Source: Streptomyces sp. NBC_01439 (GTDB taxonomy: Bacteria; Actinomycetota; Actinomycetes; Streptomycetales; Streptomycetaceae). From it: a stretch of 64,000 nt of DNA. Shown here in pieces: positions 37,958 to 55,662 of the stretch. Position numbers and translations under genes: made by a program. The stretch lies in assembly GCF_036227605.1 (NCBI RefSeq), contig NZ_CP109487.1, forward strand, positions 2,790,001-2,854,000, given 5' to 3'. Each line of letters starts with the position of its first letter. The first letter of the stretch is position 1. Below the pieces are notes generated by a model that worked only from the letters and a program-made list of their open reading frames with translations, searched no databases and was not told where the DNA came from.

Positions 37958-39192
37958 GGCTTGCGGGCCTTTCGCTGCGCGGGCATACGTGCGGTACCTG
38001 GTTCGAGTACGACGGTCTCGCCGACCGCGTACCGGGCGAGGGCCGGCCGTGGGGCCACACCGTGAGCCGTACGGGAGACCAGCCCGAGGGCAGCGAGCCG
38101 GGCGACGGCCTGTTCCACGAGGTCGGCCTCCATGCCGGGCTCCCGTGCGGACTTGGCCCAGAATCCGCCGTGTTCGGCGGCGAGTTCCCGGACTCTGACC
38201 GCCAGCTGTTCGGTGGCGACGGGACCGCCCGCCGCGGCCAGGTGCTCGGCGAGCAGCAGGGTGACGTGACCGTGGGTGCCCTGTTCGGGCATGCGGACGT
38301 CGGTGAGGTCGTCGTCGGGGTCGACCATCGCGATGCCCTCGGCGCGCACCTCGGGGACCAGTCCGGTCAGCTCGGTGATGCGTGCGGTGAGGAAGCCTCG
38401 CTGGCGGGTGAGGTAGCCGAGCTCGGCGTCGGTCAGCTCGTCGTAATAGAGCACGGGGTCGTCCAGCAGCCTGCGGGTCAGTGACCGTCGCATCGCGCGG
38501 AAGCGCAGTTCGTCGCTGTCCAGCGCGGTCTCGGCCACGAGTTCGGCCAACCGGTCCCCGAGAGCCTGCGCGTGCACGGTGGAGGGCCCGCGGCGCGCGG
38601 CGAGCAGCCCGGCCAGCACGCGCCGTTCCACGTCGTACAGGACGTCGCCCGCTCCGCTGACGTACGCGTCCTCGTCGCCGGCCACGCGCCGCAGCACGCC
38701 GAGTCCGAGCAGGAGCCGTACGACGGCGGCGAGGTCGAGGCGCTCGTCCCGGCGGTCCAGGGTGAACTGGATGCCCACTCGAACGAGGTGGGGGTCCGCG
38801 GCGTCGAGCACGACCTGGTCGGCGAGGCGGCCGAGCGCGATCTGGGCCTCGCCGCGTTCGAGGGCGGCGAGGGCGAGACAGAGAAGGACGTAGCGCCGCC
38901 GCGTGAACGGGGAGGCCGCGCGGGTCGCCTCGCGCGCGGGGTGCGTCGGGTCGCTGAGGACTCCCGGTATCTTCCGCAGGCGGGCGGCCTCGGCATCCGT
39001 CTGGAGCGACCATCCGGTATTGCGGTCGAACCACTCACGCAGTTCGGAGGCGTGTCGCCGGACGAGACGGAACTCGTCGGCGTACCGGCCATGAGCCAGC
39101 AAGAGAGGCTGCTTGACCAGGGCACGAGCAGCCTTGCGGAAGTCGGCTGCGTGTTGGCCGTCGAGCACCTCGGCGAGCGGAGTACTCGTCAT
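37954..39192 (-). CDS. jetB: Wadjet JetB-like protein (DUF2398, kite-type subunit)
   Basis: A 412-residue protein of the TIGR02678/DUF2398 family. In Wadjet it corresponds to the kite (MukE/ScpB-like) winged-helix subunit that bridges the SMC heads and the kleisin. Family features visible are the N-terminal RKAARALVKQPLL region, FTRRRYVLLCLALAALE near 97, and a central segment with DPVLYYDELT and LTRQRG. The ATG at 39192 overlaps the JetA stop (ATGA) and its own stop overlaps the jetC GTG, so the cassette is translationally coupled. No catalytic motif is expected or seen. Confidence 0.9.
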   Translation of the reverse strand: MTSTPLAEVLDGQHAADFRKAARALVKQPLLLAHGRYADEFRLVRRHASELREWFDRNTGWSLQTDAEAARLRKIPGVLSDPTHPAREATRAASPFTRRRYVLLCLALAALERGEAQIALGRLADQVVLDAADPHLVRVGIQFTLDRRDERLDLAAVVRLLLGLGVLRRVAGDEDAYVSGAGDVLYDVERRVLAGLLAARRGPSTVHAQALGDRLAELVAETALDSDELRFRAMRRSLTRRLLDDPVLYYDELTDAELGYLTRQRGFLTARITELTGLVPEVRAEGIAMVDPDDDLTDVRMPEQGTHGHVTLLLAEHLAAAGGPVATEQLAVRVRELAAEHGGFWAKSAREPGMEADLVEQAVARLAALGLVSRTAHGVAPRPALARYAVGETVVLEPGTARMPAQRKARKP

Positions 39193-40760
39193 CGGTCGCC
39201 GGCTCCGTCCGTCAGGTCGATGATCTCGATGAGGTGGTCGGGACCGCTGAAGACGCCGCCCGGCGTTCGGATCTCCGCCGTGCCGCCGTCGGCCAGCGCG
39301 GTGAGCCGGATCCCCATGGAGCCGTCGTTGCTGGTGGCAACGGTGTGGCGCATACCGGGCCTCCAGGTGGCCAGCGCGTCGCCGAGCAGTTGGAGGAACA
39401 GCCCGAAGGAGGCGGGATCGAGTTCACCGATTCCGGAGAGCCGGGTGATTCCGTCGGTGACGAGCCGGGCGCGCGCCGCCGCGGTTTCGGCGGCCTGCTT
39501 GGCGGCCACCTCGGCGAGTCCGCGGCGCCGCTCCTCCCGGTCCTCGACCTTGCGGGGTTTGCCGCGGCGCTCGTAGCTGCCGGTGCGGCGCAGCTGGGGG
39601 CTGATCCGCAGCGGCTCGGCTTCGGCCCACGGCGTGGATGCGGGCACGGGCCGCGCCGCACGGGTGGCCAGCGTCTCGGCGTCGACGGTGAGGTGGCGGG
39701 CGGGGTACAGCCCGAAGGCGGTGCGCCACAGCTGATGGCGGGCGTCGTCGTCGGGGGCCTCGGCGAACCAGCGGGCGAGGGTACGGAAGTCGGCGGACCG
39801 GTCGGAGCGCCCGGCCCTGCGCTCGTTCAGCGCCCGTACGACGGCCAGCAACTGCGGAATCGCCCCGAGCGCCCGGCCACGCAGCAGCCGGGCCTGCGAC
39901 TCACGCCCGTCCCGGCTGATGAACCAGGCCGCGAGGCCGGCCCAGCGCCCAGCCCACCGTTCGTACGCCTCCTTCTCCGCGTGCTCGACCTCCTCCGGCG
40001 AGGCATCGGCCGCCTCACGGGCCGCGGCGGCCCGCAGCAGCGGCCCGATACTCCCCCCTTCCTCCAACTCCAGGATCAGGCGGGCGATGCGCCCACCGAG
40101 GGTGATCAGGTCCTGGATGAACCGCTCCAGGTACTGGATGAGCCGGTCCTTGTAGGCAAGGAAGACCTCCTCTTCCACATCGTGGAGGTCGATGGTCCGC
40201 TGCAAGGACCCCATGAAGGCGCGGGCGTTGTCGGCGAGCGCGGCAAACCGGCTGGCCAGCGCGTCAAGCGCCAGATGCGTTTTGGCCTGATCCGGCCGCT
40301 CCTCGGCCGCCAGCACGAGCAGGGCCCGCAACTGGGTCACGATGTCGTGCAGGGCGACGGCCTGCAGCGCCCCGCGCCGCCCGAGCGCCTCGTCGTAGAC
40401 GCCCAGCGCCTCTTCGGCCGCTTCCCCGGCCCGGGTGAGCTGATAGATGAACCGCTTGCGGTAGAAATCCTCGACGGCGGTGACCCGCGCGGTATCGGGA
40501 TCGGCGCGCAGATTCCCCCAACCGACGAGGCTGTCCAGCGCCTTCACCACGGCGTCGAGCTCGCCATGCCGCGCCTCGGCCGGCAGGGCGGCGTGCACGT
40601 CCTCCGGACGCAGATGGACGGCGAACCGCTCCTTGGCGACGACGAACGCCCGCATCACCTGCCGGTAGAGGCTCGTGTTCTGCACGGTGAGGTGGGCAAA
40701 GGGGCTGTAGCCGTCGGGGCGAGGTTCGGGGCCGGTGGTCGTGACGCTCATCGCGGCCAT
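39189..40760 (-). CDS. jetA: Wadjet JetA-like protein (DUF2397, kleisin-type subunit)
   Basis: A 523-residue protein of the TIGR02677/DUF2397 family, the kleisin-like subunit in Wadjet systems of this type. The conserved N-terminal YSPFAHLTVQNTSLYRQVMR begins near residue 20. Helical segments with HDVEEEVFLAYKDRLIQYLERF and an R/E-rich C-terminal third follow. The start is ATG 40760, with ATG 40751 as an alternative. The open frame continues upstream to 40988 without family similarity. It heads the jetABCD operon, whose order matches the published cassette. Its promoter must lie in the 327-bp gap shared with the kinase-helicase gene. Confidence 0.9.
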   Translation of the reverse strand: MAAMSVTTTGPEPRPDGYSPFAHLTVQNTSLYRQVMRAFVVAKERFAVHLRPEDVHAALPAEARHGELDAVVKALDSLVGWGNLRADPDTARVTAVEDFYRKRFIYQLTRAGEAAEEALGVYDEALGRRGALQAVALHDIVTQLRALLVLAAEERPDQAKTHLALDALASRFAALADNARAFMGSLQRTIDLHDVEEEVFLAYKDRLIQYLERFIQDLITLGGRIARLILELEEGGSIGPLLRAAAAREAADASPEEVEHAEKEAYERWAGRWAGLAAWFISRDGRESQARLLRGRALGAIPQLLAVVRALNERRAGRSDRSADFRTLARWFAEAPDDDARHQLWRTAFGLYPARHLTVDAETLATRAARPVPASTPWAEAEPLRISPQLRRTGSYERRGKPRKVEDREERRRGLAEVAAKQAAETAAARARLVTDGITRLSGIGELDPASFGLFLQLLGDALATWRPGMRHTVATSNDGSMGIRLTALADGGTAEIRTPGGVFSGPDHLIEIIDLTDGAGDR

Positions 40761-41087
40761 TGTCCCGCAGCGGACGGAGCGGACGACAGGGACGAAAGCA
40801 CTTGGCTGATTCGCGATGCAGTCGGTGACCTCCCGGCCCCCGACCGGGCCGCACGTCGGACGTCGTCGATACCCTTGGCCGGCCGCGCACCCAGTCGTCG
40901 TCTGACCGTGCACACCCACTCGCGCACAGAACCGCGACCATCTTGCCCACCTGAGCCGCCCTACGCGCGCGCCACACCTGTTGACCATGTCAACGGATCT
41001 GTGTAACCCTCAGCAATAGTCATTGGTATACACTCCATCCGGAATGTATCCATCTGGCGCGTGACGGGTGAAACACGGGGAGGGGCA
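40761..41087. promoter_or_regulatory. Divergent promoter region, jetABCD / kinase-helicase operon
   Basis: This 327-bp gap holds no gene. On the rightward side are the TTGAC-N3-GTCAA dyad (40981), a -10-like box, and an imperfect inverted repeat GGTATACA (41025) and TGTATCC (41045). The jetA promoter was not pinpointed. Confidence 0.6.
40981..41009 (+). promoter_or_regulatory. Promoter with TTGAC-N3-GTCAA operator (kinase-helicase operon)
   Basis: TTGACCATGTCAA (40981-40993) is a perfect 5+5 dyad overlapping a -35 box TTGACC. TAACCC at 41004 follows at 17 bp as the -10. The same arrangement is found at 57217 and 62623. A repressor bound here would block the -35 box. Confidence 0.6.
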
Positions 41088-44000
41088 GTGACCCTGGAGA
41101 CGGTGGACACGCGGTTCCGGATCACGGAATTCGTCGGGCGCGGGAACATGGGCGAGGTACACCGAGCCGAAGATCTTCATGCTGCCCCCGACTCCCCGCA
41201 CAGGGAGGTCGCGATCAAGACAGTGCTGCGTGGGCGGACCGGGATCGCAGTCGACACCTCGGGGTCCAACACGGAGATCGACCGCTTCCGCCGCGAAGTG
41301 CGGATCATGCGCATGCTCTCCCACGGCCACCCGAACCTCACCCGTCTCATCGACGGTGGCGTCGACGAGACGCCGGGCGGCAGTGGTCTGCCCTACCTGG
41401 CCATGGAACTGCTGGACGGTCACCCGCTCGCCGATCTCATCGACGAGGAACCCCAGCTCCCGGTCTCCTGGGTCTGCGCCATCGGGGCGCAGATCGCCGC
41501 CGGTCTCACCGCCGCTCACACCGCCGGAGTCGTCCACCGCGATCTGAAGCCGGCCAATGTGATGCTGACCGGCGACGGCACCGTCAAGATCCTCGACTTC
41601 GGCATGGGCTCGATCGTCGACGACCCCGACCAGACGCGGCTGACGAGTACGGGCGTCAGCGTGGGCACGGCCCGCTACATGGCGCCGGAGCAGTTCCGGG
41701 CCGAACGCGTCTCCGGCCTCGCCGACCTCTACGCGCTCGGCTGCATCCTGTACGAACTCCTCATCGGGCAGCCGCCCTTCTCGGCGCGAACCCCGTACGA
41801 ACTCTCCGAGCAGCACCAGCACGACCGACCGCCGATCCTGACCCTGGTACGTCCGGACCTCCCCGCAGAGCTGGTCCGCCTGGTGGACCGGCTGCTGGAG
41901 AAGGACTCCGAGCTGCGGCCCGAGAACGCCGCCCTGCTCCGTGACGTGCTGGTCCCGCTGGCGTTCGCGCCGGACGACACGGCCGCCCTGCTGGCTCCGC
42001 ACTGGCAGGTGATGGATCCGGTGAAGCGGCTGCGCTCCCTGCTTCCCGAACGTGCCCCGGCAGCGCCCGTGCCCGTACCGCGCAGGCAGCCGCGGCTGCC
42101 CGAGACGATGGACGTCTTCGGCATCCACTCGGAGCTGATCAACGAGTACGAAAGCTTCACCAAGAGCGCGACGGTGATCCGGGACCCCCGTATCGAGGGC
42201 TTCGTCAAGGACGACCTGGCAAAGAAGTCCCAGTGGCCGGACCCGTGGTTGTCCTTGAATCCGTTCTTCGCGGACGGCGGGCAGGTCACGGATCTCGTCC
42301 GGGACGGCGTGCTGCACCCCCGGTGCGCCGAGATCTTCCAGGCGGGAAAGAAGGAGGGCGCGCGGCGTCCGGACGGCCGGCCGCTCACCTTCCACCTGCA
42401 CCAGCGGCAGGCGATCGAGGCCGCCCAGGCCGGCGACTCCTACGTGCTGACCACGGGTACCGGTTCCGGCAAGTCCCTGTCGTACATCGTCCCGATCGTG
42501 GACCGCGTCCTCAAGGAGCGCGAGACGGCGGGCCCCCAAGCGGGGAACCGGGTCCGCGCGATCGTCGTGTACCCGATGAACGCCCTGGCCAACTCGCAGC
42601 TCATGGAGCTAGAGAAGTACCTGCGCCACGGCTTCGGCGCGGGCCACGAGCCGGTCACCTTCGCCCGCTACACCGGGCAGGAGTCCGACGAACAGCGCCG
42701 GGAGCTGCGCAAGAACCCTCCGGACATCCTGCTGACGAACTACGTGATGCTGGAGCTGATGCTGACCCGGCCGGACGACCGGTCGAGTCTCATCCGCATG
42801 GCGGACGGGCTGCAGTTCCTCGTCTTCGACGAGCTCCACACCTACCGGGGACGGCAGGGCGCCGACGTGGCGTTCCTGATCCGCAGGGTCCGCGAGGCAT
42901 GCCGTGCCTCCGCCACCCTGCAGTGCATCGGCACCTCCGCGACCATGTCCACCGAGGGCTCCTGGGAGGACCAGCAGCGCGAGGTGGCCAAGGTCGCCGG
43001 ACGGCTGTTCGGGACGACCCTGCTGCCGAAGCGCGTCATCGGAGAGACCCTCGTCCGGGCGACCGAGGAAGCTCCGGCGATCGTGCCCGCCGAACGCCTG
43101 CGGGTACCGGCAGCCCCTCTCTCGTACGAGGCTCTGACGAAGGACTCGCTGGCCCGCTGGCTGGAGTCGCGGTTCGGTCTGGAGCGCGAGAAGGAAACCG
43201 GGCGGCTGCGCCGTTGTGCCCCCGGGACCGTCGAGGCCGCGGCCGTCGATCTGGCCGACGAGTCCGGGGTATCCGAGGAGAAGGTCTGCGAGGCGATCCG
43301 CACCACGCTGGAGGCAGGCTCGCGGGCGAAGCACCCGGTGACGGAACGCCCCCTGTTCGCCTTCCGGTTGCACCAGTTCCTCTCCAAGGGCGACACCGTC
43401 TACACGACGCTGCAGGATCCGCTCAGCAGGCCGCTCACCCGTACGTACCAGCTGGAGCAACCGAACAGCGGCGGCATGCCGCTCTTCCCGCTGGCGTTCT
43501 GCCGGGAGTGCGGCCAGGAGTACCTGACCGTCTGGCGCACCGAGGACCAGGGTTCGTTCCGGTACGAGCCGCGCCGGGACACGTCCGCCTCGGGCGGCCG
43601 TGACGGCGAGGGATATCTGTACCTCGGCATCCCCGGCGAGGACTACGAATGGCCGGCGGATCCTCAGACGGCCGTGGACGACCGGCGGTTGCCGGAGTCG
43701 TGGCTGGAGCCCGACGCGCAGGGTGCGACCGTCGTCAAGAAGTCGTACCGCCCTCGGGTTCCCAAGCGCGTCATCGTGGATCCTTTCGGGAACGAGTCGG
43801 GAGATGGTCTGACGGCCGCGTTCGTCCCGGCGCCGTTCCTGTTCTGCGTGCACTGCCAGGTTTCCTACGAGCAGACGCGCGGCCGGGATTTCGCCAAGCT
43901 GGCCACGCTGGACCAGGAGGGCCGCTCCTCGGCCACCTCCCTGATCTCGGCGTCGATCGTCAAGTCCCTTCGGGCCGTACCCGAGGACAGTCTGGGCAAG

Positions 44001-47000
44001 GAGGCGCGCAAGCTCCTCACCTTCGTCGACAACCGCCAGGACGCCTCGCTCCAGGCCGGACACTTCAACGACTTCGCGCAGGTGACCCAGTTGCGCGGAG
44101 CCCTCTACGAGGCCGCCCTGCGGGCAGGTGAGGAAGGGCTGCACCACGACGACCTCGCCGAGGCGGTAACCGCCGTGATGGGGTTGTCGACGCGCGAGTA
44201 CACCGGAGGGGCGTCCCTGGCCCCGTCGATGGAGCGCCGGGCGGCGAAGGCCTTCCGGGACGTCGTCGGGTACCGGCTCTACCGGGACCTGGAGCGCGGC
44301 TGGCGCATCACGATGCCGAACCTCGAACAGACCGGGCTGCTGAGGATCGACTACGAGGACCTGGCCTGGATCGCCGCGCAGCCGGACCGCTGGGAGTCCG
44401 CGCACGCGGAACTCCGCAACGCCGACCCCGCCCTGCGGGAGGAGGTCGCCCGGACGCTGCTCGACCACATGCGCCGGGCTCTCGCCATCGACGTCCAGTA
44501 CTTCCGCGACGACTTCGACGCCCTGCAACGGGCGAGCGAGGAGCGCCTGACCGGTCCGTGGGTGCTCAGCGAGGGCGACCGGCCCGCGGTCGGCACCGCC
44601 TACCCGTACGGTTCGCGCCCGGGCATGGAGCGCACCGCTCTCTTCCTCTCCGCCCGGGGCAAGTTCGGCAAGTACCTCCGCCGGAACATGCCCGAGCTGC
44701 GCGAACTCCCTCCCGAGGACGTCCAGGGCATCATCGAGGACCTGTTGAAGGTGCTGCTCGCGGCGGAACTGGTCCGTGAGGTGGACGCGACGCCCGAGCG
44801 CTCCGGACCGGCATTCCGCCGCGCGGCCGCACAGAAGCGGACCGGATACCGGGTGTCGGCCGCGGCCCTCGTCTGGCGTGCGGGGAACGGCGAGCGCGGC
44901 GCGGTCGACCCGCTGGCCCGTACCTACAGCCAGGGCGAGGGACCCCGCGTCAACCCCTTCTTCCGCGACCTCTACCAGACGGCGGCGGCCGAGCTGGCAG
45001 GGCTGTTCGCCCGGGAGCACACCGCGCAGGTCACACCGGAGGACCGGCTGGAGCGCGAGCGGCAGTTCCGCAGCGCCGAGCTCCCGCTGCTGTACTGCTC
45101 GCCAACGATGGAGCTGGGCGTGGACATCTCCTCGCTCAACGCCGTCCTGATGCGCAACGTACCGCCCACGCCCGCGAATTACGCGCAGCGTTCGGGCCGG
45201 GCGGGCCGTTCCGGTCAGCCCGCGCTGGTGGCCACGTACTGCGCCACCGGCAACAGCCACGACCAGTACTACTTCCGCCGTTCCGAGAAGATGGTGGCCG
45301 GGCAGGTGACGCCGCCGCGTCTCGAGCTGGCCAATGAGGACCTGGTCCGCTCCCATCTGCAGGGCATCTGGCTGGCCGAGACCGGCATGAAGCTGGGGAC
45401 CGCGATCCCGGACGTCGTCGATGTCGCCTATGACCCCGATGCCGGCGACCGGCCCGATCCGCAGATGGCGCTGCCGCTCGTCGACGGAATCTGCGACCTG
45501 TCGCTGGACGAGGGGGCTCGCCGCCGCGCCGCAACAGCAGCCCGTACCGTCCTCAACCCGCTGATCAATGATCTCGCCGCCACCACGTGGTGGTACGACG
45601 AGTGGATCGAGGACCGGATCGAGCGCGCCCCGCAGCGGTTCGACGAAGCCTTCAACCGCTGGCGCGAGCTGTTCCGGGCGGCTGTCATCGACCAGTACGA
45701 GCAGAACAGGCGCGTCGTCGACCACACCCTGTCGCAGGGCGAGCAGAGCCGGGCGCGTACCCGCCGCCGCGAGGCCGAGACGCAGACGAACCTGCTGCTG
45801 AACCGCTCGTCCGACAACAAGTCGGTGATGAGCGACTTCAACCCGTACCGGTACCTGGCGTCCGAGGGGTTCCTGCCCGGCTACAGCTTCCCGCGGCTGC
45901 CGCTGGCCGCGTACATTCCGCGCTCCGGCAACCGCCGCAACGCCGACGGCGACTATCTGCAGCGTCCCCGTTTCCTCGCGATCCGCGAGTTCGGCCCCGG
46001 GGCGCTCATCTACCACGAGGGTGCCCGCTACCAGGTCACCCGCGTTCAGTTGCCGCCGGACGCCTCGGGCGATCTGGCGACGGCGGAGGCGCGACGCTGC
46101 GACGGCTGCGGCTACCACTACGCGGTCAAGGTCGGCGCCGACGTCTGCGACATGTGCGCCGAGCCGCTGAGGAGCAAGCGGACCGGACTGCTGCACCTGC
46201 ACACCGTGTACACCACGCCGCGCGAGCGGATCTCCTCGGACGAGGAGGAGCGCCGCCGGGCCGGTTTCCGGCTGGAGACCTCGTACGCCTTCCAGGAGCA
46301 CGGCGCCCGCAAGGGACGTCTCACCTCACATGTCACCGACGTGGAAGGAGCACCCGTCCTCGACCTGGACTACGGCGATTCGGCGACCGTCCGCATCACC
46401 AATCTCGGCCGGGTCCGCGACAAGGAAGGCGAGCCGGACGGCTACTGGCTCGATCTGGGCGACGGCCGCTGGCTCAACGACCGGGCCGCCGCGGACGCCA
46501 TCGAGGGGACCGGTATGCCGGTGGTCGACGAGGACGGGAACGAGAAGCGCCGCAAGCGGCGTGTCCTGCCCTACGTGGAGGACCGTCGCAACATCCTCGT
46601 GGTCACCCTCGACGAGCCGCAGCCCGAGCCGGTGGCCCTGTCGGTCATGTACGCGTTGGAACGGGGCATCGAGGCGGCGTTCGAGCTGGAGGACTCCGAG
46701 CTCACCGCCGAGCTGCTGCCTCCGGACGACGGTCCGCGGCGGCGCATCCTCTTCATGGAGGCGACCGAGGGCGGCGCCGGTGTGCTGCGGCGCATCCAGC
46801 ACGACAAGGGCGCCCTCGCGAGGGCGGCCCGGACCGCCCTGGAGATCTGCCACTTCGACCCGGTGACCGGCAAGGACGAGGCCGAGGACGAAGACGGGCA
46901 TTCGACCGACGAGCAGTGCGCCCGCGGCTGCTACGTCTGTCTGCTCAGCTACGCGAACCAGACCCACCACCGTCGGCTGAGCCGGCACAGCGCCAAACCG

Positions 47001-47453
47001 CTGCTCATGCGGCTGGCCAGTGCCCACACCGAGCGGGAGGACCGGGGCGAGTCGCGCAGCGAGCAATTCCGCAGGCTCGCGCCGGTGGCCGACGTCTCAC
47101 GCGACGCGCAGCCGTCCACGGCGCCGACGCCGACGCCGCTGGAGGCCGATCTGGGGGCACTGGTCGCCGGCGGCGACCTGCTCGGCTGGCTTCGGGCCAA
47201 GGGCTACCGGCTGCCCGACGAGGTCGAGGTCTTCGTCCCGGAGGCGGGGGCCCGCCCGGACCTCGTCTTCCGGCTGGACGGCGCCACCCTCGCCGTGTTC
47301 GTCGACGGACCCGGCCGTACGGCCGACTCGATGCGCGACATCGAGGCCGGCTACCGCCTGGAGGACGCCGGCTGGGACGTCCTGCGGTTCCCCACGGACG
47401 CGGACTGGGACGCCATCACCGGGCACAACGCCGACTATTTCCACCTCCGTTGA
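41088..47453 (+). CDS. Ser/Thr kinase - DEAD helicase - DUF1998 - Vsr-like fusion
   Basis: A 2121-residue multidomain protein. Residues 10-285 form a complete Ser/Thr kinase: GRGNMG (17-22), Lys44, HRDLKPAN (Asp152), DFG (Asp170), APE (199-201). From about 340 a helicase begins with the segment typical of DUF1998 helicases. It has Walker A TGTGSGKS (456-463), a DELH box (581-584), TSATM, and a second RecA domain with ELGVDIS and QRSGRAGR. The DUF1998 region near the end has [12 protein letters not shown]. The last 85 residues have PDLVF and VDGP spacing like Vsr/DUF559 nucleases. GTG 41088 is chosen for its GGGGAGGGG ribosome-binding site, with GTG 41061 as an alternative. It leads an operon with an SNF2 helicase and an adenine methylase, and resembles DISARM components with a kinase added. 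Confidence 0.92.
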
Positions 47454-47504
47454 CCTACCCTCCCCAGACCTTCCTTTCTCGACCTCTAGGAACTGAGACA
47501 ACTC

Positions 47505-50465
47505 ATGAGCCTCACGTACTCGGCCGGCTCCCTGGTCACCGCCCGTGGCCGGGAATGGGTGGTGCTGCCGGAGAGCACCGACGCCATGCTGGTGCTGCGC
47601 CCCCTGGGCGGGAGCGATGACGACATCGCGGCCGTGTTCCCGTTCGAAAAGGTGGAGCCGGCCGAGTTCGCGGCTCCGAACCCGGCCGATCTGGGCGACC
47701 AGCGAGCCGCCGGCCTGCTGCGTACGGCGCTGCGCATCGGGTTCCGTTCGGGCGCGGGCCCGTTCCGCTCGCTGGCGTCGATCGCCGTGGAACCCAGGGC
47801 GTACCAGCTCGTGCCGCTGCTCATGGCCCTGCGGCAGCGCACGGTGCGGCTGCTGATCTCAGACGACGTCGGCATCGGCAAGACGGTCGAAGCCGGCCTG
47901 ATCGCCAAGGAGCTGCTCGCTCAGGGCGAGGCGAGCCGCCTCGCGGTGCTGTGCGCCCCGGCCCTCGCCGAGCAGTGGCAGTCCGAGCTGCGGGAGAAGT
48001 TCGGCATCGACGCCGAATTGATACTGGCCTCCACAGTGTCGCGCCTGGAGCGCGGTCTGGAGCTGGGCCAGTCCCTGTTCGACAAGCACCCCTACACGAT
48101 CATCTCCACGGACTTCATCAAGTCGACCCGGCACCGCGAGGACTTCGTCAAGCACTGCCCCGACCTGGTCATCGTCGACGAGGCCCACTCCTGCGTGGCC
48201 GCCGACGACAACGCCCAGGGCGGTACTTCCTCCTCGGCGAACCAGCTCCGCTACGAGCTGCTGCGCCGCGTCTCCGCCTCCCCCGACCGGCACCTGCTGC
48301 TGCTGACCGCGACCCCGCACTCCGGCAAGGAGGCCGCGTTCCGCAACCTGATCGGCCTCGTGCGGCCCGAACTCGCCACGCTGGACCTGGAGTCCCCCAA
48401 GGGGCGGGCCGAACTGGCCAAGCACTTCGTGGCCCGCAAGCGCGCCGACGTCCGCAACTACCTCACCAAGGAGGACGGTCTCGCCGACGACTCCCTGGCC
48501 GAGCGGACCGCGTTCCCGTCGGACCGCTGGACGAAGGACGAGCCGTACAAGCTGACGCCCGCCTACCGGGCGCTGCTGGACGACGCCATCGCCTACGCGC
48601 GCGATCGCGTCACAGCGGCCGGGGAGCAGGGCAAGCGGGAGTCCCGGATCGCCTGGTGGTCGGTGATCGCCCTGCTGCGCTCGATGGTGTCCTCACCGGC
48701 GGCCGCCGCCCAGACCCTGAAGACCCGCTCGGAGTCGGCGGCCGCCCGCACCGCCCAGGAGGCGGATCTACTGGGCGCCCCGGTGGCCTCCGATTCCGCC
48801 GAGAACGACCGCCTCGAGGGCATGGACGTCGCCCCGGGCGCCGCCGAGTCGGAAGAGGCGGGAGCGCGACTGCTCGAACTGTCCGAGCGGGCCGCGCAGC
48901 TCGTCGGTCCGGCCGAGGACGCGAAGCTGAAATCCCTCATCCGGCACCTGAAGGGCCTGATCGCCGACGGCTACCACCCGATCGTCTTCTGCCGCTACAT
49001 CCCCACCGCCGAGTACCTCGCCTCCCAGCTGGAGGGAAAGCTCGGCAAGAAGGCCCGGATCGCCGCGGTGACCGGCACGCTCTCCCCGCAGCAGCGTCTG
49101 GAGCGCATCGAACAGCTCGCCACCGGCTCGGCCGAGGACGCCGCCGACCCGGCCGTCCGCCGGGTGCTGATCGCCACCGACTGCCTGTCCGAGGGCGTCA
49201 ACCTCCAGCACCACTTCGACGCCGTCGTCCACTACGACCTGGCCTGGAACCCGACCCGTCACGACCAGCGCGAGGGCCGTGTCGACCGGTACGGGCAAAA
49301 GCGCGACCAGGTCCGGGTCATCACCATGTTCGGCGAGGACAACGGCATCGACGGCAAGGTCCTGAAGGTGCTGTTCGAGAAGCACCGGCAGATCCTGAAG
49401 GACCTCGGCATCTCCGTCTCCGTCCCGGACGAGACCGCCTCCGGTGTCACCGACGCCGTCGTGGAGTGGCTGCTGCTGCACGGACGGCAGGGCAGCCAGG
49501 AGAGCCTGTTCGAACTGGACGGCCACCAGGAGTCGTTCGACCGGATCGAGCGCGAGTGGAACTCCGCCGCAGAGCGGGAGAAGACGTCCCAGTCCAAGTA
49601 CGCCCAGCGCACGATCCACCCGGAAGAGGTGGCGCGCGAGGTCGCCGCCGTACGGGCCGCGCTCGGCGGCGCCGACGAGGTCCGCGGCTTCGCCCTGGAG
49701 GCGTTGCGGGACCTGAATGCCCTGGTCCGCACTGCGACGTCCTCTGGGCGCGACGGCTCCGGTGACTTCACCGCCCAGCCCGGCGGCACCCCGGCCGGTC
49801 TGCGGGACGCGCTCGCCGCCACGCTCGGCGGGCGGATCGTCGAGGAGGACCGCGAGATCCCGTTCCGCACCACGCCGGCGATCGCCCGCGGCGAGGCGGC
49901 ACTGGTCCGCACCGACCCGGCGATCGGCGCCATCGCCTCGTACGTCCTGGACTCGGCGCTGGACGCGAAGACCCCCGGCCCCCGCCCCGCGCGCCGCTGC
50001 GGCGTGGTCACCACGGACGCCGTGACCGCCCGCACCACGCTCCTCCTGGTCCGCTACCGGTTCCACCTGACGCTGCCGTCCCGCAAGGGCGATCAGCAGC
50101 TGGTCGCCGAGGACGCGCGGCTCCTCGCGTACGAGGGGATGCCGGCGCGCGCCCGCTGGCTGGACGACGACGCCGCAACCGCTCTCCTCGCGGCCCGTGC
50201 GAGCGGCAACACCCACGAGCTGGCCGCCCGCAACGCCATCACCAAGGCCCTGGACGGCCTGCCGGACCTGACCGCGCATCTCACCGCCTACGGAACAAGC
50301 CTGGCCGGCGAGCTCGACGCCTCGCACCGCCGGGTGCGCAAGGCCAACGAGGAGATCGTCCGCGGCCTCAAGGTCGTCCCGCAGGAGCCCGCCGACGTCC
50401 TCGGTGTGTACGTCTACCTGCCCCCCGTCGCGTCAGCCCCTACCGTGTCCGGAGCCGAAGCCTGA
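47505..50465 (+). CDS. SNF2-type helicase, DrmD-like
   Basis: A 986-residue SNF2/Rad54-family helicase. Walker A is DVGIGKT (121-127), the DEAH box is at 225-228, TATPHSG follows, and the C-terminal helicase half has ATDCLSEGVNLQ and QREGRVDRYGQ. The C-terminal 250 residues have no recognised motif. It most resembles DrmD, the SNF2 helicase of class 1 DISARM and related systems. It would translocate on DNA rather than unwind it. The ATG at 47505 lies 51 bp after the kinase-helicase stop and its own stop overlaps the methylase ATG (TGATG), so the three genes form one transcription unit. Assignment as DrmD is by domain type and neighbourhood, not by alignment. Confidence 0.9.
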   Translation: MSLTYSAGSLVTARGREWVVLPESTDAMLVLRPLGGSDDDIAAVFPFEKVEPAEFAAPNPADLGDQRAAGLLRTALRIGFRSGAGPFRSLASIAVEPRAYQLVPLLMALRQRTVRLLISDDVGIGKTVEAGLIAKELLAQGEASRLAVLCAPALAEQWQSELREKFGIDAELILASTVSRLERGLELGQSLFDKHPYTIISTDFIKSTRHREDFVKHCPDLVIVDEAHSCVAADDNAQGGTSSSANQLRYELLRRVSASPDRHLLLLTATPHSGKEAAFRNLIGLVRPELATLDLESPKGRAELAKHFVARKRADVRNYLTKEDGLADDSLAERTAFPSDRWTKDEPYKLTPAYRALLDDAIAYARDRVTAAGEQGKRESRIAWWSVIALLRSMVSSPAAAAQTLKTRSESAAARTAQEADLLGAPVASDSAENDRLEGMDVAPGAAESEEAGARLLELSERAAQLVGPAEDAKLKSLIRHLKGLIADGYHPIVFCRYIPTAEYLASQLEGKLGKKARIAAVTGTLSPQQRLERIEQLATGSAEDAADPAVRRVLIATDCLSEGVNLQHHFDAVVHYDLAWNPTRHDQREGRVDRYGQKRDQVRVITMFGEDNGIDGKVLKVLFEKHRQILKDLGISVSVPDETASGVTDAVVEWLLLHGRQGSQESLFELDGHQESFDRIEREWNSAAEREKTSQSKYAQRTIHPEEVAREVAAVRAALGGADEVRGFALEALRDLNALVRTATSSGRDGSGDFTAQPGGTPAGLRDALAATLGGRIVEEDREIPFRTTPAIARGEAALVRTDPAIGAIASYVLDSALDAKTPGPRPARRCGVVTTDAVTARTTLLLVRYRFHLTLPSRKGDQQLVAEDARLLAYEGMPARARWLDDDAATALLAARASGNTHELAARNAITKALDGLPDLTAHLTAYGTSLAGELDASHRRVRKANEEIVRGLKVVPQEPADVLGVYVYLPPVASAPTVSGAEA

Positions 50466-53400
50466 TGTCCGCCGCCACACGCACCGCCCTGGCCTTCACC
50501 GCCGTCGCCCCGGTCGGCGGCCTGCTCCCCTCCGACATGCTGCTGCGCATCGCCGAGGCACGGAACCTCCCGGGCACCAAGTCCGCCGACTACGGCCTGC
50601 CCGCCTCGGTACCCGTACGGCTCGAGGCCGAGCGAGCCTGGGAGTACCTCAAGCCGCTCTGGCGCGACCTGCGCGCCGCCCTGCCCCCGCACCCGGAGAC
50701 CGGCGCGCCCGCCGCCGACCCGACGGGCCGCGCCGGCACCGACTGGCTCGCCCAGCTCTTCCGCAAGCTGGACTTCGGCGCGCTGACGGAGGTCGGCGCG
50801 GAGGGCATCGCGGCCGACTCCGACCCGGACAAGCGCTTCCCGGTCTCCCACCGGCACGGCCCGGCCCTCATCCACCAGGTCCCGTGGAACCAGGACCTCG
50901 ACAAACGCCCGGCCCCCGGCCAGGTCCCCGCCCAGTCGATGGTCCAGGACTGCCTCAACCGCACCGAAGCCCACCTGTGGGCGGTCGTCACCAACGGCCG
51001 CCGGCTCCGCCTGCTGCGCGACTCCTCGTCCTTCTCCACGGCGGCCTACGTCGACGTCGACCTCGAAGCCCTCTTCGACGGCGAGCTGTTCAGCGAGTTC
51101 GTCCTCCTGTACAGCCTGCTGCACGCCTCCCGGTTCACCGTGCCCGAGGGGACGTCGGCGGCCGGGTGCTGGCTGGAGAAGTGGCGCGCCGAGGCCGTCA
51201 CCTCCGGCACCCGCGCCCTGGACCAGCTGCGCCTGGGCGTACAGAACGCCCTGACCGTCCTCGGCACCGGCTTCCTGCGCCACCCGGACAACGCCGCACT
51301 GCGGGAGAACACCGACCCGAGGGCGCTGCGGGACGCCCTGCTGCGGCTCGTCTACCGGCTGCTGTTCGTCTTCGTCGCCGAGGACCGCGGCGCGCTGCTC
51401 GACCCGGAGGCCGGTGAGGGGGCGCGGGACGCCTACGAGCGGTACTTCTCCTCCGCCCGCCTGCGCGAGCGCGCCCGCCGCCGCCAGGGCACGGCCCACG
51501 GCGACCAGTACGAGGCCCTGCGCATCGTCCTCGAAGCCCTCGGCACGGAGGGCGGCCGCCCCGAGCTGGCGCTGCCGGGCCTCGGCGGCCTGTTCTCCGA
51601 CACCGAGACGGATGCTCCGCTGGGCGGCCTGAAGCTGTCCAACGAGTCGCTGCTCTCCGCGATCCGCCACCTCGCCCAGGTCCGCGACCAGGGCGCGCGG
51701 CGCTGGCGGCCCGTGGACTACCGGCACCTGGACGCCGAGGAACTGGGCTCGGTCTACGAGTCCCTGCTGGAGCTGGAGCCGAAGCATTCGGCGACGGACC
51801 GAAGCTTCGAGCTGGTGGAGGTGGCTGGCAACACCCGCAAGACGACGGGCAGTTACTACACCCCGTCCTCCCTCATCGAGTGCCTGCTCGACACCACCCT
51901 CGACCCGGTGATAGACGACGCGGTCAAGCGGGGCGAACAGCGCGCCACCACCGCCGGCCACCCCGACCCGGCCGACGACATCGTGGCCGAGCTGCTGTCC
52001 CTGACGGTCTGCGACCCGGCATGCGGCTCCGGCCACTTCCTGGTGGCGTCGGCCCGACGCATCGCCAAGCGGGTGGCTTCGGTGCGCGAACGCAACCCGG
52101 AGCCGACGGACGACGCCGTACGGCATGCGCTCCGCGAGGTCGTCGCCCGCTGCATCTACGGCGTCGACCTCAACCCGATGGCCGTGGAGCTGGCGAAGGT
52201 TTCACTGTGGCTGGAGGGGATGGAGCCGGGCAAGGCGCTCGGTTTCCTCGACGCCCACGTCAAGCACGGCAACGGCCTGATCGGTGCGACCCCGAAGCTG
52301 CTCGGAGAAGGCATCCCCGACGACGCCTTCAAGCCGCTTGAGGGCGACGACCGCAAGTACGCGTCTGCCCTCGTCAAGCGGAACAAGGCCCAGCGGGGCG
52401 GCCAGGACGAGCTCCTCTTCGACACAGAACCCTTGCCGGGCAACGAGCGGTATGCCGTTGAGCTGGCCCGCATCACCGCCGCCCCTGCCGAGTCGCTGGA
52501 GGAGGTACACGCCCAGGAGTCCGCCTACCGTGCGTACACGGAGTCGGCTGCGTACGTGCACGATCTGCACGCTGCCGATGCGTGGTGCGCGGCGTTCGTG
52601 TGGCCCAAGCACGAGGGGGCGCCGGAGGCTCCGACGGACCAGGTGTTTCGGGCACTGCGGGGGCGGGATCAGACCGCGGTGTCGGACGGCACCCACGCCG
52701 AGGTCCTGCGGCTGCGGGATCAGTACAGCTTCTTCCACTGGCATCTGGAGTTCCCGGAAGTCTTCTCCGTCCCGGAGTCGGGCGCCGGTGTCCAACCGGG
52801 TACGGGCTGGGCCGGCGGGTTCAGCGCGGTGGTGGGGAACCCGCCGTGGGACAGCGTGAACTTCCCCGAGACCGAATTCTTCGCCGTACGCGCACCGGAC
52901 ATCGCGGCGACCAACAACACGGCGGCCAGGAAAAGGAAGATCCAAGCTCTCAGCGAAGACCCGGACACAGTTCAGCTCTACAACGACTATCAAGCCGCCA
53001 AGCGACAGGTGTACGGCGAGAGTCACTTCCTTCGCATCTCCGGCCGCTATCTCTTGACCGGCCAGGGAAATCTCAATGTCTATGCCCTGTTCGCCGAGAA
53101 CGACCGCGTGCTGACATCAGCTCGTGGCCGCACGGGCGTGATCGTTCCAACTGGTGTCGCAACAGACAGTCGAACTCAGTACTTCTTCAAGGACCTCATC
53201 ACCAAGGGCCACCTGGCAGCCCTCTACGGCTTCGAGAACGAGGAGAAAATCTTCCCTGGGGTTGACCACCGCGTGAACTTTGCCCTGTTCTGCATGGCGG
53301 GCTCCGGATCCCCCGAGGCACCAGTATCGATCGCTTTCGGAGTTCGTCAGACCACGCAGATCCAGGAGCGTTCATACCTCCTGACGGGACGCGACATCCA

Positions 53401-54553
53401 GCTCCTCAACCCGAACACCGGTACCTGCCCCGTCTTCCGCAACCGGCGCGACGCGGAAATCACCCTCAGAATCTACCGCCGTGTCCCCATCCTCGTCGAC
53501 GAGACGAAGACGACCGACGGCAACCCATGGGGCGTCTCGTTCATGCGCATGTTCGACCTGTCGCACGACTCCCACCTCTTCTGCCCCGATGTCCAGAACG
53601 GCGAGACCTTCGACGACCTCCTCAAGGACGGCTGGCGCCTTGACGGCAACGTTCTGGTGCGAGGTGAGGAGCGCATGCTCCCCCTGTACGAAGCAAAGAT
53701 GCTGCACCACTATGACCATCGCTTCTCCACCTACGAGGGCGCAACCGAGAACCAACTCGCCGTCGGCACCCTCCCCCGTTTTACCCAGGAACAGCACCAG
53801 AATGCCGCCGCCGTCCCCACGGCCCGCTACTGGGTAGCGGAAGGCGAAATTCCCACGGGAAAGTTCGCAAAGAACGACACGGAGATCACGGCCCTGGGCG
53901 TACGCGGCCGATTGGCCGAGAAGGGCTGGACTCGCGACTGGGTCCTGGGCTGGCGCGACATCACGAACAAGGGCAACGAGCGCACTATGATCGCATCCCT
54001 AGCCCCTGCCCATGGCTTCGGAAACTCCTTCTTCTTGGCGCTCCCTGCCCGGCCGCGACAGGCTCCGCTCCTCGCAACCGTCTGGTCGTCCCTGGCCTGT
54101 GACTACGCTGTCCGTCAGAAGGTCGGTGGCACGCACCTCACCTACGGCTACGTCCAGCAGATGCCGGTCCCCACTCCCGACCAGCTCGCACCGCACACGG
54201 AATTCATCAACCCACGCGTACTTGAACTGGCCTACACCAGCGACGACATGGTGGGGTTCGCCCGCGATCTCGGCGACACCAGCGCACCCTTCCGCTGGGA
54301 TCCGGACCGCCGCGCCGTGATCCGCGCCGAGCTGGACGCCCTGTTCTTCCACCTCTACGGCATCACTCGCGACGACACCGCCTACATCCTGGACACCTTC
54401 AACGTCACCCGCGACAACGACATGAAGGCGCACGGCGAGTACCGCACCAAGAATCTGATCCTCGCCGAGTACGACCGGATGGCCACAGACGGCCTGCCCG
54501 ACTACCGGTCCACGCTCACCCCGCCCCCCGGCCAGGGCCCCCGCCACGCCTGA
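50465..54553 (+). CDS. Large N6-adenine DNA methylase (DrmMI/PglX/Eco57I-like)
   Basis: A 1362-residue class I DNA methyltransferase. Motif I is DPACGSGHF (517-525) and motif IV is NPPW (792-795), which marks N6-adenine methylation. The N-terminal 450 residues are the helical region found in PglX and type IIG enzymes, but no PD-(D/E)XK nuclease motif was recognised there. Residues after 800 should include the target-recognition domain. This part, from about base 52860 to 54200, is less GC-rich and uses more A/T-ending codons than the first half, as expected for an exchangeable specificity region. It is probably the self-marking enzyme of the defence operon and starts inside the SNF2 stop codon. 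A perfect hairpin terminator follows. Confidence 0.92.
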   Translation: MSAATRTALAFTAVAPVGGLLPSDMLLRIAEARNLPGTKSADYGLPASVPVRLEAERAWEYLKPLWRDLRAALPPHPETGAPAADPTGRAGTDWLAQLFRKLDFGALTEVGAEGIAADSDPDKRFPVSHRHGPALIHQVPWNQDLDKRPAPGQVPAQSMVQDCLNRTEAHLWAVVTNGRRLRLLRDSSSFSTAAYVDVDLEALFDGELFSEFVLLYSLLHASRFTVPEGTSAAGCWLEKWRAEAVTSGTRALDQLRLGVQNALTVLGTGFLRHPDNAALRENTDPRALRDALLRLVYRLLFVFVAEDRGALLDPEAGEGARDAYERYFSSARLRERARRRQGTAHGDQYEALRIVLEALGTEGGRPELALPGLGGLFSDTETDAPLGGLKLSNESLLSAIRHLAQVRDQGARRWRPVDYRHLDAEELGSVYESLLELEPKHSATDRSFELVEVAGNTRKTTGSYYTPSSLIECLLDTTLDPVIDDAVKRGEQRATTAGHPDPADDIVAELLSLTVCDPACGSGHFLVASARRIAKRVASVRERNPEPTDDAVRHALREVVARCIYGVDLNPMAVELAKVSLWLEGMEPGKALGFLDAHVKHGNGLIGATPKLLGEGIPDDAFKPLEGDDRKYASALVKRNKAQRGGQDELLFDTEPLPGNERYAVELARITAAPAESLEEVHAQESAYRAYTESAAYVHDLHAADAWCAAFVWPKHEGAPEAPTDQVFRALRGRDQTAVSDGTHAEVLRLRDQYSFFHWHLEFPEVFSVPESGAGVQPGTGWAGGFSAVVGNPPWDSVNFPETEFFAVRAPDIAATNNTAARKRKIQALSEDPDTVQLYNDYQAAKRQVYGESHFLRISGRYLLTGQGNLNVYALFAENDRVLTSARGRTGVIVPTGVATDSRTQYFFKDLITKGHLAALYGFENEEKIFPGVDHRVNFALFCMAGSGSPEAPVSIAFGVRQTTQIQERSYLLTGRDIQLLNPNTGTCPVFRNRRDAEITLRIYRRVPILVDETKTTDGNPWGVSFMRMFDLSHDSHLFCPDVQNGETFDDLLKDGWRLDGNVLVRGEERMLPLYEAKMLHHYDHRFSTYEGATENQLAVGTLPRFTQEQHQNAAAVPTARYWVAEGEIPTGKFAKNDTEITALGVRGRLAEKGWTRDWVLGWRDITNKGNERTMIASLAPAHGFGNSFFLALPARPRQAPLLATVWSSLACDYAVRQKVGGTHLTYGYVQQMPVPTPDQLAPHTEFINPRVLELAYTSDDMVGFARDLGDTSAPFRWDPDRRAVIRAELDALFFHLYGITRDDTAYILDTFNVTRDNDMKAHGEYRTKNLILAEYDRMATDGLPDYRSTLTPPPGQGPRHA

Positions 54554-54663: not shown

Positions 54664-55662
54664 TTGAGCATTCACACGGCCCCACCCTCGATGAGCACGT
54701 ACGAGGAGCAGGTCTGGAAGGCCCTCAACGAACACTGGGAGCGCCGCAACAACCGCCGTGGTCTGCCGAAATGGGCGACCAACGCCCTCGACCGCACCGG
54801 GGAGGTCGCGGGAAACGCAGGGCGTCGGGTCAAGGAGGCCGTGCCGGAAGCGGTCAAGGAGCCCATACGTCGCGCGGGTGACGCGATCGCCGATGCGGCC
54901 CTGCGACCGGCGGTCGCGGGCGCGACGGCGCTGCTCGACCTGGTCAACGACTGGGCGTTGGAGCTCAACGACCCGAAGAGCGTCGAGAAGATCGCCCGAA
55001 AGCAAGGGCTCGAGATCGACAGCTACGCCGATCTGCGGGAGCAGGACCTCAAGGTCTGCGACCGGCTGCTGGGCGCCAACACCATGAAGTGGCGGACCGC
55101 CGGCGCGTTCGAGGGGGGCGCCATGGGCGCCCTGGCCATGGTCCCCGTCGCCGGTATCCCCGCCGCGATGACGGCGGACATCCTCGTCATCCAGGTCCTG
55201 AGCGCGTCGATAGCCGCGCGAATCGCGTACTCCTACGGCTACGACGCCAAGGACCCCGATGAGCAGCTCTTCATCCAGCGCCTGGTGCACCAGTCCTTCA
55301 AAGCGCAGGTGGCCAAGGCCGAGCCGCTGCACAAGACCGCGCAGGCGGCGCAGGCCCTCAAGGGGCGCGTGAGGTTTTCGGACAAGCTCCGTCACGACCA
55401 CAAACTGGTGGCCGCTCTTGAAAAGTTGATGCAGCACCTGAGCCCGGCGGGCTCCAAGGTGTCGGTCAAAACCGTGGCCAAGGTCGTGCCGTTCGTCGGC
55501 ATCCTCATCAGCGCCGGCCTGAACTCCGCAGTCCTCGGCCGCGTGGCCTCCGAGGCCCAGCGGTACTGCCAGACCCGCTTCCTGTGCGAAAAGTACGGAC
55601 TGCCGCTGCCGGCCGCACTGGCGGCCGATCCGGACGACGACCTCGAGACCGACTTCGCGTAG
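54664..55662 (+). CDS. EcsC-family protein
   Basis: A 332-residue protein with the EcsC domain in its second half. Visible are the YEEQVWKAL N-terminus, a Gly/Ala-rich hydrophobic stretch around 150-185 (GGAMGALAMVPVAGIPAAMTADI) of the kind that associates with membranes in this family, and a second hydrophobic turn near 285-305. TTG 54664 is chosen because GGAGAA lies 7 bp upstream. ATG 54691 lacks a site. EcsC proteins have no firmly known reaction. It lies after the terminator of the methylase operon, so it may be separately transcribed. In a defence island it could be a membrane-acting effector, but this is speculation. Confidence 0.85.
   Translation: MSIHTAPPSMSTYEEQVWKALNEHWERRNNRRGLPKWATNALDRTGEVAGNAGRRVKEAVPEAVKEPIRRAGDAIADAALRPAVAGATALLDLVNDWALELNDPKSVEKIARKQGLEIDSYADLREQDLKVCDRLLGANTMKWRTAGAFEGGAMGALAMVPVAGIPAAMTADILVIQVLSASIAARIAYSYGYDAKDPDEQLFIQRLVHQSFKAQVAKAEPLHKTAQAAQALKGRVRFSDKLRHDHKLVAALEKLMQHLSPAGSKVSVKTVAKVVPFVGILISAGLNSAVLGRVASEAQRYCQTRFLCEKYGLPLPAALAADPDDDLETDFA

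Follow-up and report, generated by a model that had tools for sequence, protein, structure and literature searches.

Organization of the locus

The stretch of DNA analysed here, called the window below, comprises 64,000 nucleotides of Streptomyces sp. NBC_01439 (contig NZ_CP109487.1, positions 2,790,001–2,854,000 of the forward strand) and carries, at window positions 41088–54553, an operon of three genes, the first of which encodes a Ser/Thr protein kinase with an intact catalytic core in one chain with a YprA/DUF1998 helicase and a nuclease. The operon itself is already known, being assignable by sequence comparison to the system ARMADA Type I, and the kinase arm is its new part. Residue numbers in gene 1 are counted from the GTG codon at 41061; for the start at 41088, 9 is to be subtracted. 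The features are as follows.

41088–47453, plus strand: gene 1, Ser/Thr kinase, YprA/DUF1998 helicase and Vsr-like nuclease, 2121 amino acids (2130 from GTG 41061)
41121–41942, plus strand: PknB-type protein kinase domain, residues 21–294 (Pfam Pkinase, 2.4e-41)
42105–42107, plus strand: junction Met (residue 349), the starting point of kinase-less relatives
42399–45215, plus strand: helicase core with large inserts (Pfam DEAD, residues 447–630, 2.1e-26; Helicase_C, residues 1317–1385, 1.9e-11)
46647–46943, plus strand: MZB/DUF1998 zinc cluster, residues 1863–1961 (Pfam MZB, 1.1e-8)
47148–47453, plus strand: C-terminal PD-(D/E)xK-like nuclease domain of the Vsr/DUF559/MTES_1575 group
47505–50465, plus strand: gene 2, RapA/BrxHII-like SNF2 helicase, ArmA-like, 986 amino acids (Pfam, PADLOC, NCBIfam)
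50465–54553, plus strand: gene 3, PglX-like N6-adenine methylase, ArmB-like, 1362 amino acids (Pfam, PADLOC, NCBIfam)
52865–54184, plus strand: hypervariable, probably target-recognition, region of gene 3, residues 801–1240

The gene 1 start at 41088 is a GTG preceded by GGGGAGGGG, a ribosome-binding site, which bears out the start used in the initial annotation (whose kinase residue Asp152 is D161 in the present numbering) and makes it preferable to the GTG at 41061, which adds 9 amino acids. Genes 1 and 2 are 51 bp apart, and genes 2 and 3 share a single base (TGATG), in keeping with the closely spaced or overlapping genes first reported. Pfam recognizes Helicase_C, DEAD, ResIII and, slightly below its cut-off, SNF2-rel in gene 2, and Eco57I/N6_Mtase in gene 3, where NPPW and DPACGSG motifs agree with the N6-adenine methylase named at the outset.

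The solved YprA/MrfA structure 6znp is among the best structural matches of the gene 1 helicase. The nuclease part claimed earlier for this protein is found in its last 100 residues, where D2067 and D2082, in a PD...D pattern, are 98–100% conserved across 174 sequences of the kinase clade and 131 without the kinase. The domain is Vsr-like: with Pfam at E up to 0.1, 28 C-termini of the family gave DUF559 (14), MTES_1575 (13) and Vsr (5), the window's own C-terminus giving a weak MTES_1575 match (0.045) below the Pfam cut-off. The AlphaFold model of the nuclease domain, with a mean predicted local distance difference test score (pLDDT) of 81, has VRR_NUC as its top match in the PDB (probability 0.99, E 0.018); no match falls below 0.001, and the homing endonuclease I-Bth0305I is among the matches.

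Assignment to ARMADA Type I

ARMADA was described in a bioRxiv preprint of September 2025 (PMC12458937), according to whose main text Type I consists of a YprA helicase with a C-terminal Vsr-type nuclease, then a BrxHII-like helicase, then a PglX-like methylase, and is common in Actinomycetota. The window operon shares these three proteins in the same order, with the helicase and the DUF1998 cluster joined in the gene 1 protein (DEAD, Helicase_C and MZB matches) and the Vsr-type nuclease at the C-terminus of the YprA protein, and the order recurs in operons without the kinase on plasmids of Nocardioides and Deinococcus, the Deinococcus methylase being split in two. We therefore take the operon, by gene set, gene order and C-terminal nuclease as published, to be ARMADA Type I. 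What sets this locus apart is the kinase with intact catalytic residues fused before the YprA start; 'kinase' and 'phosphorylat' occur nowhere in the main text of the preprint. The initial annotation, which could match the arrangement to no named system, is thereby superseded: profile searches assign the three genes to a described system and take away the novelty of the operon, while that of the kinase fusion stands. Among the literature matches listed, covered by their titles and the beginnings of their abstracts, no description of a kinase–DUF1998 helicase fusion was met; supplements, subscription journals and most preprints lay outside this scope, within which 'undescribed' therefore holds. 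ARMADA Type II (ArmABCD) has the same three protein kinds, but differs in gene order and in an extra RelE-GajB-like helicase, ArmD, and its description in the preprint's main text includes no kinase. Among the downstream window frames given to Pfam no ArmD-like (UvrD/GajB) gene was found, the matches being EcsC, Hsp70 and an antisense NAD-GH frame.

It is scarcely credible that the operon should be counted as Dpd, DISARM class 1 or Druantia. PADLOC does label gene 2 as DpdE, over its full length and with 1625 bits, and gives gene 1 a DruE model as its top match, a partial one (341 bits); however, gene 2 scores 302 bits with the NCBIfam DrmD model (cut-off 610) and 172 bits with DpdE (cut-off 500), and the DpdJ cut-off is likewise not reached. 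The PADLOC model concerned (PDLC02853 in PADLOC-DB 2.0.0) may derive partly from ARMADA helicases and mislabel them. Dpd was rejected despite the DpdE label because the window's genome contains no match to the TGT family (DpdA-like, PF01702), which is matched in all 14 control genomes. DISARM class 1 likewise combines an SNF2 helicase, an adenine methylase and a YprA helicase with DUF1998, but in the window helicase and DUF1998 form one chain, to which a Vsr-like nuclease and a kinase are fused. The flanking frames given to Pfam include neither a phospholipase D gene (drmC) nor a separate DUF1998 gene (drmB), as had been noted from the start. Of the earlier label 'DISARM-like', the relationship to DISARM helicase/methylase operons thus stands, although the operon is not DISARM; in 'DrmD-like', the SNF2 helicase is sound and the DrmD name is loose. 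Druantia III shares with the window a YprA helicase-nuclease, DruE; the partner of DruE is DruH, whereas here the partners are an SNF2 helicase and a methylase. No DruH label appears among the PADLOC matches listed (the best 25 of 43 and of 45 for genes 2 and 3, and those of the JetC, EcsC and Hsp70 frames), a genome-wide search for DruH not having been made. Pgl (BREX type 2) is similar in that a kinase sits in a large defence protein alongside a PglX-like methylase, in Streptomyces. PglW, given in the available text of PMC12839542 as a NERD nuclease with two kinase modules, is without a helicase; the locus proteins reach 43 bits with the PglW model (cut-off 990), and the three operon genes are not PglZ or PglY, a genome-wide search for PglZ not having been made.

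Conservation of the kinase–helicase fusion

Presence and order of the operon parts were scored by tblastn in 80 related loci from named genomes. All parts lie on one strand in the same order in 73 of them, six more being cut by contig ends and the last (L067) lacking the kinase only, which upholds the conserved three-gene order on which the initial annotation depended; within the 73, the helicase frame of L046 is broken and the N-terminal half of the L060 methylase is matched in part. The kinase is in frame with the helicase in 77 of the 80 loci, the others being L067 and two loci cut by contig ends (L053 and L059). Four loci counted as in frame (L017, L023, L027 and L032) have a match in the same phase that begins 6–21 bases before the first codon of the frame.

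The catalytic core is equally well preserved. The VAxK, HRDxKxxN and DFG motifs are present in 237 of the 240 nearest listed database proteins, retrieved with the window and with a Pseudonocardia member as queries; 17 missed the strict pattern, of which 14 have the complete core (P0309 and 13 whose annotated start is shortened), leaving P0270, with Lys for Asn166, P0331, without the N-lobe, and P0081, to which we return below. In a list of 120 proteins centred on a Nocardioides homologue, the HRD motif occurs in none. Residues K53, H159, R160, D161, K163, N166, D179, F180, G181 and, in the activation loop, T195 are invariant in an alignment of 196 kinase sequences, made up of the loci and P0005–P0123 (P0081 dropped), without P0244–P0363 and with some proteins entered twice. 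The Pkinase and MZB matches together with this invariant core support the earlier description of an intact, active-looking kinase in the chain of a DUF1998 helicase. The closest solved structures to the kinase domain are those of PknB.

Residue 349, at the junction, is Met in all 77 pattern-matched loci, and M, L and L by eye in the other three of the 80; among database proteins it is Met in 202 of 207, Leu in 4 and Val in 1, with 16 of 223 not placed. An internal start at the junction Met is possible, but is without support since no consistent ribosome-binding site was seen before it and since Leu and Val occur at this position. The 77 in-frame loci, the unchanged catalytic residues and the single gain and single loss on the helicase tree described below show that the fusion is no accident: it is real and well conserved.

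The hosts found for the fused clade are Streptomyces, Micromonospora, Nonomuraea, Amycolatopsis and relatives, and database records of fused proteins exist, mostly named protein kinase. A kinase-fused locus (L075, CAJCJE010000769.1), its helicase 64% identical to that of the window, comes from a contig that bears the label Candidatus Melainabacteria but may be actinobacterial and misassigned. The operon is also carried by a 2.8-Mb linear replicon of Streptomyces sp. BHT-5-2 listed as plasmid p1 (NZ_CP081497.1, 1686201–1698387; H61), the match covering 90% of the query, kinase end included, at 81% DNA identity. A search of 50,697 phage records returned one weak match.

Co-inheritance and the probable recognition region

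Identities were compared by rank correlation over the 2556 pairs formed by 72 sequences, those of the window and of 71 loci. Kinase identity follows that of the helicase (rho 0.87) and of the SNF2 helicase (0.84); kinase and helicase are co-inherited. Region 801–1240 of the methylase behaves otherwise: it gives 0.05 to 0.07 against kinase, helicase and SNF2 helicase (kinase 0.05, helicase 0.07), and 0.24 against the methylase core. Among 428 pairs with helicases more than 85% identical, identity in this region ranges from 30 to 87%, and it is the hypervariable part of the gene 3 profile drawn over 32 close loci. Such decoupling is the signature expected of recognition-domain exchange, and the methylation target therefore probably differs between close relatives through exchange of this region.

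The close co-divergence with the helicase and the SNF2 helicase is what would be expected of a partner inside the system, and argues against the kinase being a second effector that, upon infection, phosphorylates host or phage proteins so that growth stops, in the manner of stand-alone defence kinases, with the helicase as trigger. An intact catalytic core would suit this or any other enzymatic role, and the kinase domain does match the PADLOC defence kinases PD-T4-6 (257 bits) and mad6 (222 bits); these matches are, however, general to PknB-type kinases, and the domain stays below the NCBIfam cut-offs for PknB, MAD6 and PglW. Moreover, Type II, the subject of the phage experiments in PMC12458937, protects without killing the cell according to the preprint's main text. 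We thus consider a second effector unlikely, and favour a kinase that acts within the operon.

Origin of the kinase arm

The helicase tree comprises 121 sequences, 119 of them of known kinase state (L053 and L059 count as unknown; L031, L046 and L075 were left out as cut or broken). Presence of the kinase changes twice on it, which is read as one gain and one loss. Across the phylum, 23 of 396 genomes carry a match, with two copies in a frame long enough for the kinase and five fragments, a picture borne out by the pieces retrieved. Streptomyces was sampled twice, kinase presence being inferred from frame length: helicases occur in 9 of 61 genomes (11 copies, 9 long and 2 short) and in 24 of 150 genomes (26 copies, 22 in long frames and 4 short, one of the latter at a contig end). 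Genome G416 in the smaller set has one copy of each kind. Kinase-less operons are found across phyla, on plasmids of Nocardioides, Rhodococcus, Deinococcus, Roseomonas and, with the other gene order, Chroococcidiopsis. On the conjugative Nocardioides plasmid pNOCA01 (L112), a kinase-less ARMADA Type I lies about 4.4 kb downstream of DISARM drmA/drmB on the same strand.

These distributions bear on a coupling of the system to host physiology, whereby the Ser/Thr kinase network or the developmental state of the host would set its activity independently of DNA. The genera hosting the fused clade, the 51 matches to a kinase query in the window's genome and the structural proximity to PknB are consistent with it. 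Kinase-less ARMADA Type I in the same genus, and in G416 even in the same genome, speaks against it, since such hosts evidently do not require the kinase; furthermore, the gene 1 chain contains no PASTA or other Pfam-recognised sensor domain. Host coupling is accordingly quite unlikely in our view.

In three loci (L120, L121 and L164), which are all three short Streptomyces copies not at a contig end, a separate kinase gene is divergent from the helicase gene, about 200–250 bp from the helicase start. L121 and L164 have like surroundings (93% over 6.7 kb) and L120 has no match to them there, so that these are two settings, not three. A near-identical TTGACT(T/G)AGTTCACA element is present in the divergent promoter of all three, between the kinase and helicase genes, and the separate kinase of L121 has no plasmid match at 1e-70. 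In the fetched stretches of the 31 other kinase-less loci no kinase gene was found; 27 of these stretches hold more than 3 kb upstream, those of L129, L195, L131 and L189 hold less, and L123 holds a partial helicase.

The three loci are sister to the fused clade on the helicase tree, with a value of 99 in the Shimodaira–Hasegawa-like approximate likelihood ratio test, and all 32 kinase-free rows fall outside (quick method, long branches). On the kinase tree, in which L227 gave no row and G_L203 and G_L208 are the same sequence, the fused kinases form one clade (100/100) and the separate kinases another (100/100); a single common clade of both was not rejected by the approximately unbiased test (p 0.27). 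The sequences would fit either a single recruitment with later fusion or separate recruitments in the two sister lineages, and each way the branch favours a kinase.

Proposed role of the kinase

By analogy with the proposal for PglW in Pgl, the kinase most likely phosphorylates the system itself. Our reading of the whole, held with moderate confidence, is that of an ARMADA Type I anti-phage operon in which the kinase fused to the YprA helicase-nuclease is triggered by DNA loading to phosphorylate the operon's own proteins, leading to attack. The PglX-like methylase would mark host sites, their choice being set by the exchangeable recognition region, and the RapA-like helicase and the YprA helicase-nuclease would engage invader DNA that is unmarked or contains single strands. 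When several YprA chains load on the same DNA, their kinase domains may be brought together. PknB-type kinases are activated through dimer contact and activation-loop phosphorylation; the assembled domains would first act on one another's activation loops and next phosphorylate the operon's own proteins, and this phosphorylation would switch the system from idle to attack, as activation rather than restraint.

That the kinase works with this system is supported by its conservation, by the sister lineage, in which the kinase has a gene of its own, and by the precedent of PglW. In S. coelicolor, the PglW substitution K677A abolished autophosphorylation and phage resistance, and signalling by phosphorylation was proposed in the available text of that study (PMC4365076). 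The related YprA helicase DruE is described, in the accessible part of PMC13192584, as dimeric, loading on 3' single-stranded DNA and assembling further; it has been proposed to become nuclease-competent on assembly. Gating of the helicase or nuclease by phosphorylation, as suggested initially, is plausible. A more specific version, which we offer tentatively and think rather doubtful, is a DNA-activated kinase: YprA copies on invader DNA would switch on the fused kinase, the partner helicase and methylase would be phosphorylated, and the surveillance operon would attack, the sister lineage with the separate kinase being an unfused stage of the same circuit.

Several observations weigh against a kinase-switched ARMADA Type I. 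The kinase-less form is widespread, Streptomyces included, and a fused-clade copy in Streptomyces sp. AC1-42W (L067) has lost its kinase, no kinase match being found in its 25-kb stretch; the former junction Met can serve as the start of its helicase, and a kinase-fused second copy (L030) lies on the same contig. The core of the operon therefore does not need the kinase. On the kinase tree the separate kinases pair with a host kinase (96/92), and fused and separate kinases are not positively joined. P0270, P0331 and P0081, the exceptions among the 240 database proteins, depart from the full core, P0081 being a kinase end only. The trees contain no named ARMADA reference sequence; on the helicase tree the window falls in with copies of this operon that have no kinase. 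A model of the kinase with RecA1 is of low confidence (pLDDT 70.5; predicted template modelling score 0.48) and shows no docking, which makes it too weak to use. No phosphatase partner was found among the nine flank-cluster frames given to Pfam, not every cluster having been examined: four have no match, and the other five are DUF5753/HTH, AAA/DUF4357, a sigma factor, N6_Mtase and Helicase_C. Flank clustering in this GC-rich DNA yielded many antisense-looking frames. Finally, Ser/Thr positions specific to the kinase clade appeared enriched in the helicase, at 17 of 74 compared with 89 of 756 for the remaining conserved positions (odds ratio 2.2, p 0.01). The reverse control gave 8 of 51 and 53 of 623 (odds ratio 2.0, p 0.12), and the phosphosite idea was set aside because of this similar ratio.

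The L067 loss and the frequency of kinase-less copies also bear on a restraining role, in which phosphorylation would keep the helicase-nuclease away from host replication forks. A helicase-fused nuclease possibly acting on single-stranded DNA would endanger the host, and fusion would supply one restraint per effector; on the other hand, the loss in L067, even though the fused copy L030 is kept on that contig, and the many kinase-less operons suggest that the effector is not lethal without the kinase. We regard restraint as quite unlikely too and retain, as the preferred reading, an activating kinase that acts on the operon's own proteins.

Neighbouring genes and a second locus

Upstream of the operon lies a further group of genes:

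32592–40988, minus strand: Wadjet II-like genes (JetABCD-like), namely DUF2397, DUF2398, JetC2 (1435 bits) and DUF3323/DUF2399 (Pfam, PADLOC)

They are directly divergent from the kinase–helicase gene, with about 100 bp between the starts. A divergent jetA beside the operon is also seen in L055 (S. griseocarneus) and a nearby one in L074, with no match in the other 78 of the 80 fetched stretches. A perfect inverted repeat, GTTGAC-cat-GTCAAC (40980–40994), lies in the divergent promoter region common to both sides, with its centre at the start codon of jetA, and may be due to chance. Downstream are an EcsC-family gene (54664–55662) and an Hsp70-like gene with a weak zinc-ribbon match (60096–62597), neither of which matches PADLOC at 1e-10.

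The same genome contains a second locus in ArmA-B-C-D order (G000:C1, about 1378000–1394000; L119, 72–15911), which encodes the end of a DrmD/BrxHII-like helicase, a methylase of 1815 amino acids, a YprA/DruE-like helicase of 2254 amino acids and a GajB-like helicase of 788 amino acids, and looks like ARMADA Type II.

Significance

The interest lies in the kinase arm and in the sister form where it is unfused. A large clade of actinomycetes keeps an intact kinase in the effector chain of a system whose description of 2025 has no phosphorylation arm in its main text. The intact core sets the window clade apart from the vWA-MoxR conflict systems, most of whose kinase domains have disrupted catalytic residues according to the available text of PMC7159879. 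Nature supplies the controls: the kinase-less operon in the same genus, the sister lineage with a separate kinase, and the L067 copy that lost its kinase beside L030. With these controls and a kinase fused to the effector, the switching-on of methylation-guarded helicase-nucleases becomes testable by a single kinase-dead substitution.

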